NCBI RefSeq assembly: GCF_017304615.1
Contig: NZ_JAFKLZ010000004.1
Location: 62,001-126,000 of the forward strand
Source: Sphingomonas sp.
Lineage (GTDB): Bacteria; Pseudomonadota; Alphaproteobacteria; Sphingomonadales; Sphingomonadaceae
DNA length: 64,000 nucleotides
Direction of reading: 5' to 3'
The translations under genes and the position numbers were made by a program. Positions 53,609 through 56,481 of the stretch are shown piece after piece; position 1 is the stretch's first letter, and every line of letters starts with the position of its first letter. The notes beneath the pieces are model-generated. The model was not told where the DNA came from. It was given only the letters and a program-made list of their open reading frames with translations, and did not search any database.

Positions 53609-53616
<8 letters not shown>

Positions 53617-54280
53617 ATTTCAGGCCCATCGCCTCGAGCTTGCCGCGCATGTCGTAGATATCGAGGCCAAGCTCCCCAGCCGCCAGCCGCGCTCGCTTCG
53701 ACTCCTCGGCCGCTTCCCGCGCCTGCGCCTTTTCCAGCACCGCGGCGGCATCGGCGCGCCTCACGACGCACACGCCGTCATCGTCGGCGACGATCACGTC
53801 GCCCGGCTCCACGGCCGTTCCCGCGCACACGATAGGCACGTTGACCGACCCCAGCGTCGCCTTGACCGTTCCTTGCGCGAATATGGCTTTGGACCAGACC
53901 GGAAAGCCCATCTGGGTCAGGTCGCGCACGTCGCGCACGCCAGCGTCGATCACCAGCCCCCGGCATCCCCGCGCCATTGCCGAGGTGGCCAGCAAGTCGC
54001 CGAAATAACCGTCCTCGCACGGGCTCGTCGGGGCCAGCACCAGGATGTCGCCCGACTGCAACTGTTCGATCGCGATATGGATCATCCAATTGTCGCCGGG
54101 CGGCGCGGAGATGGTGACCGCAGACCCGGCAATCCGCGCACCCGGATAGATCGGACGCAGCCGGCTGGCGAGCAGGCCGATCCGTCCCTGCGCCTCGTGC
54201 ACCGTCGCGACCCCGGCGGCGGCTAGCCCGTCGATCACCGAACCTTCTGCGCGAACGATATTGCGGACGACACGTGCCAT
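53609..54280 (-). CDS. ligK: 4-carboxy-4-hydroxy-2-oxoadipate aldolase
   Basis: A 223-residue HMG/CHA aldolase of the RraA-like class II fold. Motifs are [20 protein letters not shown], the substrate/metal segment [14 protein letters not shown] (Arg and Asp ligands) and [19 protein letters not shown]. It cleaves CHA to pyruvate and oxaloacetate, the last step of the 4,5-cleavage pathway. It is first gene of ligKUI, divergent from ligR across 95 bp. Confidence 0.94.
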
Positions 54281-54329: not shown

Positions 54330-54341
54330 CAATTGGAATTG
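54330..54341. promoter_or_regulatory. Candidate LigR binding dyad in the ligK/ligR spacer
   Basis: CAATT-GG-AATTG (54330-54341) is a perfect dyad 49 bp upstream of ligK and 34 bp upstream of ligR. Its core TTGGAATT recurs inverted at 55557-55564 and AATTGGA at 55586-55592 before the DUF1932/ligJAB genes. Confidence 0.45.
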
Positions 54342-54375
54342 CGCGGGGGTCATAAGTTATTGCTATAGGATCACC

Positions 54376-55575
54376 ATGGTTCGGCCGTTCGACCTCAATC
54401 TCCGCCACTTGCGCTCGCTGTCCGCCATCGCTGCGCGGGGCAGCATGAACGCGGCGGCAGAAGCCGTGAACCTGTCGCAGCCGGCGCTCACACAAGGGCT
54501 GGCCAAGCTGGAGCGGCAATTGGGCGTCGCGCTGTTCAATCGCCGATCCGACGGTGTCGCCCCGACCGAAGCCGGCGCGTTGATGGCCGAGCGGGCCGAC
54601 GCAGCCTTTTCGTACCTCGCTGCCGCGATGCCGCGCCGGGGCGCGCGCACCTTCGCCCGGTCCGAGCACTTGATGACGGCGAGCCAGGCTCATGCCTTCC
54701 TCGCGCTTGCCGACGCCGGCAGCTTCGTCGCGGCGGCAGAGGCTACCGGCGTCTCGCAGCCCGCGCTGCACCGCGCCGCGCGCGATCTGGAAATGATTTG
54801 CGGTGTCGCACTCGCCGAACGGCGCGGGCGCGGCGTCATACTCACGGCGGCGGGACGGCGGCTGGCGCGAGGCATCCGGCTGGCGGCGAGCGAGATCGCG
54901 GCGGGCATCGCCGACCTGAGCGGAGAGGCGGAAAGCGGGCTGGTATCCATCGGATCGATGCCGCTGAGCCGCGCGCTGATCGTCCCCTATGCGATTGCCG
55001 GTTTCGTCGGCGGCGCGCCGCGCGCGGTGGTCGACGTCACCGAGGGGTCGTGGCGCGAACTCGTCGATCCGCTGCGCGACGGGATCATCGACATCATGGT
55101 GGGGGCGCTCCGCGACGAGACTCCGCACGGGCTGGACCAACGCGCCCTGTTCACCGATCGGCTGGTGGTGATCGGCCGCGCCGGCCACCCGCTGGCGACC
55201 ATCACGGACCCCACGCTGGAGGACCTGGGGCGGTTCGGCTGGATCGTCGGCCACGCCGGAACCCCGCTGCGCGCACATTGGGACGCGCTGTTCGAGGGGC
55301 GGGACAAGCCCGAGGCGCTGATCGAATGCGGGTCGGTCATGGTGATCCGCGGCGTGCTGGGCGACAGCGACCTGCTCACCCTCCTGTCGCCGGACCAGGT
55401 GGCGCTGGAAATCGAGAGCGGGCTGCTCACCGCGATCGGCCCACCGTTGACACAGGCAGTGCGGACGATCGGCATCACGACCCGCACCGGCTGGCGCCCC
55501 ACGGCGGCGCAACGGCGCTTCATCGCCTTGGTCGAGAAGGCGGTGGTGGAAACAAGAATTCCAAAATCCCAATAG
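54376..55575 (+). CDS. ligR: LysR-type regulator of the lig genes with two tandem HTH domains
   Basis: A 399-residue protein, about 95 longer than usual LTTRs. HTH 1 spans about residues 7-80 (GSMNAAAEAVNLSQPALTQG, LFNRRSDGVAPTEAG). HTH 2 spans about 100-172 (GSFVAAAEATGVSQPALHRA, AERRGRGVILTAAG). The SQPAL recognition helices are 93 residues apart, so the segment looks like a tandem duplication. The effector domain starts near 185. It is divergent from ligK and followed by ligJAB, matching LigR of SYK-6, an activator of both lig operons with protocatechuate or gallate as inducer (family knowledge). Confidence 0.88.
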   Translation: MVRPFDLNLRHLRSLSAIAARGSMNAAAEAVNLSQPALTQGLAKLERQLGVALFNRRSDGVAPTEAGALMAERADAAFSYLAAAMPRRGARTFARSEHLMTASQAHAFLALADAGSFVAAAEATGVSQPALHRAARDLEMICGVALAERRGRGVILTAAGRRLARGIRLAASEIAAGIADLSGEAESGLVSIGSMPLSRALIVPYAIAGFVGGAPRAVVDVTEGSWRELVDPLRDGIIDIMVGALRDETPHGLDQRALFTDRLVVIGRAGHPLATITDPTLEDLGRFGWIVGHAGTPLRAHWDALFEGRDKPEALIECGSVMVIRGVLGDSDLLTLLSPDQVALEIESGLLTAIGPPLTQAVRTIGITTRTGWRPTAAQRRFIALVEKAVVETRIPKSQ

Positions 55576-55629
55576 CTGGTCCGGGAATTGGATTGGCAGT
55601 GGTGAGATGGGCTGGCCTAGACGCCGGTC

Positions 55630-56481
55630 GTGGAATCCACATTCGCCTTTATCGGGTTCGGGGAAGCCGGCGCCGCCTTTGCGAGTGGCGCCCAGGCGCG
55701 CGCCTATGACCGGAAGACCGATTTCGCGGAAACCCGCGACGCCAAGCTGGCGGATTTCCGCGCGGCGGGCGTAACGGCCTGCCTGTCCGATACAGAGGCG
55801 CTGGACGGGGCGACGGCCGTCCTGTCGCTCGTCACCGCCGACCAGGCACTGGCCGCCGCCGAGGCCGCCGCACCGAGCCTCAGCCCCGGGACGTTGTGGT
55901 TCGACATGAATAGCGTCGCCCCGGACACCAAGCGCGCCGCCGCCGTCGCGATCGAGGCAGCGGGCGGTCGCTATGTCGATGTCGCGATCATGTCCCCCGT
56001 GCATCCCGCCCGGCTCGCGAGTCCGCTGCTGGTCGCCGGTCCCCATGCGGTCGCTGGCGCCCAGGCGCTGGCCGCTTTCGGCTTCGCCAGTGTCGCGACG
56101 GTGCCCGGCGATGTCGGCGCGGCATCGTCGATCAAGATGATCCGATCGGTGCTGGTGAAGGGGCTCGAAGCGCTTACCGCCGAATGCTTCCTCGCGGCGG
56201 AGGCAGCCGGCGTTACCGATGCCGTCGGCGCATCGCTCGACGCGAGCTGGCCGGGCGTCAGCTGGGCGGCGAAGGCCGACTACAATCTCGAACGGATGAT
56301 GGCGCATGGCGGCCGTCGCGCCGCCGAAATGGAAGAGGTGGCCAAGACGCTCGACGCGCTCGGTACCGGCGCGGCGATGACGCGCGGCACGATCGAACGC
56401 CAACGCGCGATCGGCGCGCTCGGTCTGACCGCGCCTCCCGGCCTTCGCGCCAAGATCGCCGCTATAAGAGGTGCAGCATGA
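55630..56481 (+). CDS. NAD(P)-dependent oxidoreductase with DUF1932 C-terminal domain, lig-operon member
   Basis: A 283-residue protein of the 6-phosphogluconate dehydrogenase-like superfamily. The Rossmann start is FAFIGFGEAGAAFASG; the mid part has DVAIMSPVHPARLASPLLVAG; the C-terminal DUF1932 domain has SSIKMIRSVLVKGLEAL (Lys at the usual catalytic position, the usual Asn replaced by Ser). The start is GTG 55630, 54 bp after ligR; the stop overlaps ligJ (ATGA). No step of the known pathway needs it, so it may reduce or oxidise a hydroxy- or oxo-tricarboxylate side product (inference). Confidence 0.82.
   Translation: MESTFAFIGFGEAGAAFASGAQARAYDRKTDFAETRDAKLADFRAAGVTACLSDTEALDGATAVLSLVTADQALAAAEAAAPSLSPGTLWFDMNSVAPDTKRAAAVAIEAAGGRYVDVAIMSPVHPARLASPLLVAGPHAVAGAQALAAFGFASVATVPGDVGAASSIKMIRSVLVKGLEALTAECFLAAEAAGVTDAVGASLDASWPGVSWAAKADYNLERMMAHGGRRAAEMEEVAKTLDALGTGAAMTRGTIERQRAIGALGLTAPPGLRAKIAAIRGAA

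Follow-up and report, generated by a model that had tools for sequence, protein, structure and literature searches.

LigR of a Sphingomonas lig cluster, a LysR-type regulator with two DNA-binding domains beside an asymmetric operator

What does a LysR-type transcriptional regulator (LTTR) do with a second DNA-binding domain? LTTRs are regarded as having one DNA-binding domain per chain and as acting on palindromic sites in the form of homodimers or tetramers. The question is raised by ligR/fldY (54376..55575, plus strand), a gene in a 64,000-nucleotide stretch of Sphingomonas sp. DNA (contig NZ_JAFKLZ010000004.1, positions 62,001 to 126,000), herein termed the window, the 399-residue product of which carries two LysR helix-turn-helix (HTH_1) domains and one LysR_substrate domain. 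With slightly more confidence than doubt, we propose that the N-terminal domain (HTH1) pairs with the second domain (HTH2) of its own chain, that this covalent pseudo-dimer reads an asymmetric operator, and that two such chains stand in for the canonical tetramer.

Two LysR-type domains in one chain

The frame at 54376-55575 has 399 codons, an ATG start and no internal stops. When each HTH was scored separately against the Pfam HTH_1 model (PF00126, curated cut-off 26.6 bits), HTH1 (residues 9-67; 54400..54576, plus strand) reached 72.6 bits and HTH2 (about residues 104-161; 54685..54858, plus strand) 62.0 bits, while LigR as a whole scored 120.3 bits with two stretches above threshold. These scores bear out the first-pass annotation, which had described two complete LysR HTHs offset by 93 residues, and the five patterns that it listed as shared are all present (GSMNAAAEA/GSFVAAAEA, SQPAL/SQPAL, GVAL/GVAL, RRSDGV/RRGRGV, and TEAG/TAAG). 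The two domains are identical at 32 of 76 positions, where 10,000 shufflings of HTH2 averaged 9.4 and never exceeded 20. Each is followed by a predicted linker helix, helix 1 at residues 65-84 (54568..54627, plus strand) and helix 2 at residues 158-182 (54847..54921, plus strand), and the substrate-binding domain occupies residues 185-388 (54928..55539, plus strand; LysR_substrate 105.8 bits, cut-off 28). LigR thus has the defining domains of the LysR superfamily, with HTH_1 above its cut-off twice and LysR_substrate above its own, but it departs from the canonical LTTR layout of one HTH per chain and about 300 residues. The PcaQ model TIGR02424 scores 201.7 bits on LigR, below its cut-off of 303.8. 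The host genome has 18 HTH_1 matches above cut-off in 16 frames, and the only two-HTH frames are LigR and its paralogue (L016).

The rarity of such an architecture, and nothing further, might suggest an artefact, be it a sequencing frameshift, a gene fusion in one strain or an HTH1 that is not translated. Full-length homologues occur in many independent genomes, however, and HTH1 is under purifying selection, with ratios of nonsynonymous to synonymous polymorphism (pN/pS) of 0.016-0.19 across nine pairs of relatives, and we regard the artefact as refuted for practical purposes. The frameshift or internal start near residue 100 that, by the first-pass annotation, would refute the two-HTH reading was not found, and translation from the internal Met100 is rejected on this selection together with the retention of Met100 in only 28 of 130 sequences. 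Mean top-residue frequency, calculated over 71 sequences, is 0.657 in HTH1, 0.635 in HTH2, 0.595 in the sensor domain and 0.455 in the stretch between the HTHs. On sequence grounds, HTH1 of LigR is functional, translated and under selection. The 130 sequences were picked by length (more than 370 residues, earlier loci) or by a full profile match (later loci), so that the presence of both HTHs in 130 of 130 is by construction. Left out of this set and of the alignments were L007, which ends early, L013, at a contig edge, L068, matched from residue 91, and L027, a weak single-HTH match. L007 (genome G026) is a ligR in lig synteny whose frame is cut off at 323 codons; this copy may be broken or misassembled.

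Searches for other two-HTH LTTRs found them in many genomes, in the Alphaproteobacteria and beyond; the samples of near genomes, family, class and phylum overlap, and the host genome is included. Among near genomes the two-HTH protein is present in 15 of 61, the host genome counted, and two of the 17 matches, L007 and L013, fall short of the C-terminus, that of L013 by running off the contig end. Matches in the family sample were found in 62 of 298 genomes (61 starting at or before query residue 17, and one, in G332, at residue 153), those in G061, G174 and G123 having stop codons within the matched range. The class sample gave matches in 14 of 385 genomes, 12 starting at or before residue 8 and those in G472 and G576 at residues 72 and 90, and the phylum sample in 35 of 398, with 13 outside the class; 33 of these 35 start at or before residue 8, and the other two, at residues 56 and 66, contain stops. 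Plasmids contributed 99 matching records, in each of which a match spans 80% or more of the LigR query. When a family profile was searched against one outside family, 62 places in 53 of 150 genomes started at profile position 7 or earlier, as did matches in 2 of 274 genomes in the class of G1068; the remaining matches in both, starting at position 55 or later, look like single-HTH relatives. Of ten loci from named genomes, nine have alignments that begin at residues 1 to 5 (Sphingomonas, Novosphingobium, Brevundimonas, other Sphingomonadales and Caulobacteraceae), and the tenth is a weak Pseudomonas match. This distribution indicates that the double-HTH LigR represents a conserved class rather than an isolated case, a stronger observation than had first been stated. 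Several double-HTH relatives (L041, L042/L077, L008/L009, L015, L017, L059, L070, and L071) have no lig genes in the stretch that was fetched, and the neighbors of L077 encode a CoA transferase, an aldehyde dehydrogenase and a GMC oxidoreductase. The double-HTH class may hence govern other catabolic operons besides lig.

The two domains appear to have a long separate history. In a tree of 27 HTH1, 27 HTH2 and 14 single HTHs from the host genome, every HTH1 fell into one clade (support 0.82) and 24 of the 27 HTH2 into another (0.94), from which it follows that HTH1 and HTH2 are old and have been kept distinct. The mean identity of HTH1 is 31.8% to its own HTH2 (27 pairs), 31.0% to the HTH2 of other members and 29.2% to the single HTHs of the host genome. 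A recent tandem duplication of one HTH was rejected on this comparison, because HTH1 is no nearer to its own HTH2 than to those of other members. Residues 98 to about 391-396, comprising HTH2 and the sensor domain, superpose on full-length chains of single-HTH LTTRs with solved structures, TsaR, CbnR and BenM among them, and HTH1 is therefore the addition. Each chain of these LTTRs has a single DNA-binding domain, whereas LigR has an extra one at its N-terminus, and we envisage that it belongs to an old lineage of LTTRs, formed when a complete LTTR gained a second DNA-binding unit at its front.

An operator with fixed polarity

The canonical LTTR recognition site is palindromic. The LigR operator ATAAGTTATTGCTAT (54352..54366, plus strand) has the form ATAAG-N5-GCTAW, ends nine bases before the ligR start and has its ATAAG end toward ligK; it includes T-N11-A, and the ligK-ligR spacer thus has the canonical LTTR trait of a T-N11-A operator adjoining the divergent target gene. 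ATAAG-N5-GCTAW is the reverse complement of the LigR motif TT-N-GC-N6-TTAT, which was derived from footprints of the Novosphingobium aromaticivorans and SYK-6 proteins (PMC12710314), and the published motif is matched with one mismatch at 54352-54366 on the minus strand. Among 41 non-redundant spacers between ligK and its regulator, 33 match ATAAG-N5-GCTAW at 9 or 10 of the 10 fixed positions, always on one strand and mostly 7 to 12 bases ahead of the regulator start codon, and shuffled spacers score 9 or more in 1.2% of cases. Palindromes built from either half of the operator reach 9 or more in only two of the 41 spacers each, and the palindromic site of canonical LTTRs is thus lacking here. 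Upstream of DUF1932 genes the asymmetric site scores 9 or more at 6 of 38 loci, the ATAAG end always facing the target gene as it does at ligK, and the palindromes do so at 0 and 1 of 38. The LigR operator is asymmetric and has a fixed polarity.

Two further elements accompany these promoters. The conserved element CAATTGGAATTG (54330..54341), on the ligK side of the operator, is a candidate for the activation half and/or the -35 region of ligK, and AATTGGATTGG (55586..55596, plus strand), upstream of DUF1932, for a -35 region or an activation half; [AG]ATTGG occurs on the same strand as AATTGGATTGG at 22 of the 38 DUF1932 upstream loci. The DUF1932-ligJ operon of this clade is without the LigR operator found upstream of DUF1932 elsewhere, yet it retains the ATTGG element at 55586-55596.

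The first-pass annotation had offered a different use for the second HTH, namely that a tetramer displaying eight HTHs could bridge the 1.2 kb between the ligK and DUF1932/ligJ promoters, or read two different motifs. Eight HTHs per LigR tetramer is a matter of arithmetic only, and the word tetramer does not occur in the main text of PMC12710314. The spacing of the promoters is right for bridging, and N. aromaticivorans LigR binds both the ligK and the SARO_RS14280 promoters, which leaves room for looping there (PMC12710314), whereas in the window the operator lies on the ligK side only. The 3.34-Mb genome has a single exact ATAAG-N5-GCTAW, that of the ligK-ligR spacer (the pattern read backward, as a control, occurs five times), and the best scores upstream of DUF1932 and ligJ in the window are 2.5 and -4.4 bits compared to 27.1 for the spacer site. 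Two-promoter bridging, which we consider highly improbable, was therefore rejected for this genome. As described in PMC12710314, moreover, the N. aromaticivorans ligK and SARO_RS14280 promoters are shifted as separate fragments of ~200 bp and ligJ is not bound, so reaching a second promoter does not require a second HTH. In that account a single motif serves both sites, and the two promoters therefore do not differ in motif. The idea that LigR reads two motifs thus fails between promoters and survives in an altered form, in which the two motifs would be the unlike half-sites of one operator.

How one chain may read the operator

AlphaFold models of LigR gave a predicted local distance difference test (pLDDT) of 95.2 and a predicted template modeling score (pTM) of 0.91 for the full-length single chain, and 96.9 and 0.91 for residues 1-183 alone. 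HTH1 and HTH2 are predicted from this to hold a fixed mutual position within one chain, since domains free to move against each other should lower pTM clearly. We propose that HTH1 with linker helix 1 pairs with HTH2 and linker helix 2 of the same chain, replacing the homodimer of ordinary LTTR DNA-binding domains, and that the two would read the dissimilar halves, ATAAG and WTAGC, of a single T-N11-A operator, so that LigR would bind in a fixed orientation toward the promoter. Joined via their sensor domains, two chains would present two DNA-binding pseudo-dimers, one for a recognition site and one for an activation site, like the canonical LTTR tetramer. Binding of protocatechuate or gallate would then move the second pseudo-dimer toward the -35 region and activate ligK, and the DUF1932-ligJABC operon might be activated likewise where a site exists. 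All 130 sequences have Arg73 in linker helix 1 (54592-54594), and position 173 in linker helix 2 (54892-54894) is Glu in 128 and Asp in 2, while positions 80 and 166, their equivalents, vary; the conserved pair may form one heterotypic contact between the helices. In some members, such as L049 and L050, the HTH1-HTH2 linker is just a few residues, which suits pairing inside one chain. The LigR footprint without ligand is about 30 bp per site, and that of SYK-6 LigR, as cited in the same paper, extends toward the promoter with protocatechuate or gallate (PMC12710314). These data fit binding to the operator first and to the ATTGG side thereafter, although they are no proof of it.

Several points weigh against this pseudo-dimer. 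Its geometry is a prediction drawn from the high pTM, and among the 50 matches listed no single chain of the Protein Data Bank spans both tandem HTH halves. The Arg73-Glu173 contact is one that we infer, and the pair is not private to the two-HTH family, because at least one ordinary LTTR of the host genome (L111) combines a basic with an acidic residue at the corresponding positions. In a covariation analysis of HTH1 against HTH2 (130 sequences, effective number 78), no clear signal emerged for antiparallel linker helices, and the strongest diagonal is parallel; E80 occurs with H166 in 32 of the 37 sequences that have E80, on the expected pseudo-symmetric diagonal, a count uncorrected for relatedness. 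Three HTH2 domains (L100, L102, and L106) were placed outside the HTH2 clade. The operator consensus was drawn from the same ligK spacers in which it was then counted, so that the ligK counts are partly circular, an objection that does not apply to the DUF1932 sites or the published motif. Lastly, N. aromaticivorans and SYK-6 LigR are assigned two HTHs from gene position and operator, not from their sequences.

Like might also pair with like across chains, HTH1 with HTH1′ and HTH2 with HTH2′, and one dimer would then place two homodimeric units on the recognition and activation sites. The two conserved DNA elements beside ligK, the operator and CAATTGGAATTG, would suit this arrangement, the linker of the window LigR (residues 85-101) is long enough for it, and covariation gives intramolecular pairing no preference, but the operator has no two-fold symmetry, pTM is high for the single chain 1-183, and the very short linkers of L049 and L050 leave scant room for a partner swap; we consider it unlikely. 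That HTH1 is a regulatory or dimerization element derived from a DNA-binding domain, with HTH2 alone on the DNA, seems to us distinctly unlikely. The ~30 bp footprint without ligand is no bigger than that of one DNA-binding unit (PMC12710314), and the recognition-helix consensus of HTH1 (SQPAxTQAxAKLE) has Gln where that of HTH2 (SQPxLHRAxRDLE) has Arg (T39-Q40 versus H133-R134). However, the core of the HTH1 recognition helix (Q35, A37, and E46), conserved at 90% or more, is among the most conserved parts of the protein, and pN/pS is as low in HTH1 as in HTH2.

The lig locus and the place of LigR among LTTRs

As expected of LigR/FldY orthologues, ligR sits between the divergent aldolase gene ligK (53609..54280, minus strand) and a DUF1932-type dehydrogenase gene (55630..56481, plus strand; the SARO_RS14280 counterpart), the first gene downstream, which is followed by ligJ. 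Gene position and operator together identify the two-HTH regulator as LigR/FldY and support the name given to it in the first-pass annotation, and at 58 of the loci compared a divergent ligK lies no more than 300 bases from the regulator. FldY of Sphingobium sp. TomTYG65 (L074, AP027331.1), annotated merely as a transcriptional regulator, has 383 residues, both HTHs, a shorter HTH1-HTH2 linker and 49.5% identity to LigR, and is flanked like LigR by fldZ (ligK), a DUF1932-type gene and fldW (ligJ); its neighbors are annotated as an aldolase, FldA, a 6-phosphogluconate-dehydrogenase-like gene and an oxalomesaconate hydratase. The LigR proteins of N. aromaticivorans and Sphingobium SYK-6, encoded likewise between ligK and the DUF1932/SARO_RS14280-ligJ operon, share the asymmetric operator and are LTTR activators of the protocatechuate 4,5-cleavage genes; LigR of relatives activates lig genes on protocatechuate or gallate (PMC12710314). 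The deletion coordinates given there for a LigR mutant (3,039,643 to 3,039,815) span 173 bases, far below a gene of ~1.2 kb.

The host genome has a second ligU-ligK-ligR-DUF1932-ligJ cluster (L016, G000:C4:64291-68448), with a double-HTH LigR 61% identical to the first. Its spacer contains a near match to the operator (9 of 10), and the operator of this cluster, ATAAGTTTTCTCTAT, is slightly different. The two LigR paralogues may split a regulon or cross-talk.

Two HTHs are known from other regulators. AraC-type chains carry two (PMC4486848), and those parts of PMC4486848, PMC6018408 and PMC8063818 that bear on the matter deal with AraC, TetR, MarR, YodB and Rex proteins. While AraC/XylS and MarR-type regulators have two HTHs per chain or dimer, they differ in fold arrangement and family, and both HTHs of LigR are of the LysR type. 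No description of a double LysR DNA-binding domain was found in the open literature searched by architecture and protein name, a body that does not extend to subscription papers such as the first reports on SYK-6 LigR and on LB126 fld, and the main text of PMC12710314 has no occurrence of helix-turn-helix, HTH or domain. Hence, the function of LigR is known from the literature and its two-HTH design is new relative to what was searched. It is possible, although we would put it at somewhat less than an even chance, that LigR/FldY typifies an LTTR class widespread among proteobacteria, in which a heterotypic covalent pseudo-dimer reads a polar operator, one dimer does the work of the canonical tetramer and the operator itself encodes the direction of activation. 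A large class with two diverged DNA-binding domains would break the one-domain rule of LTTRs and offer them polar binding, and the two-HTH reading would explain the asymmetric motif already published for LigR, a regulator that controls the central pathway of lignin-to-product strains and matters for their engineering.
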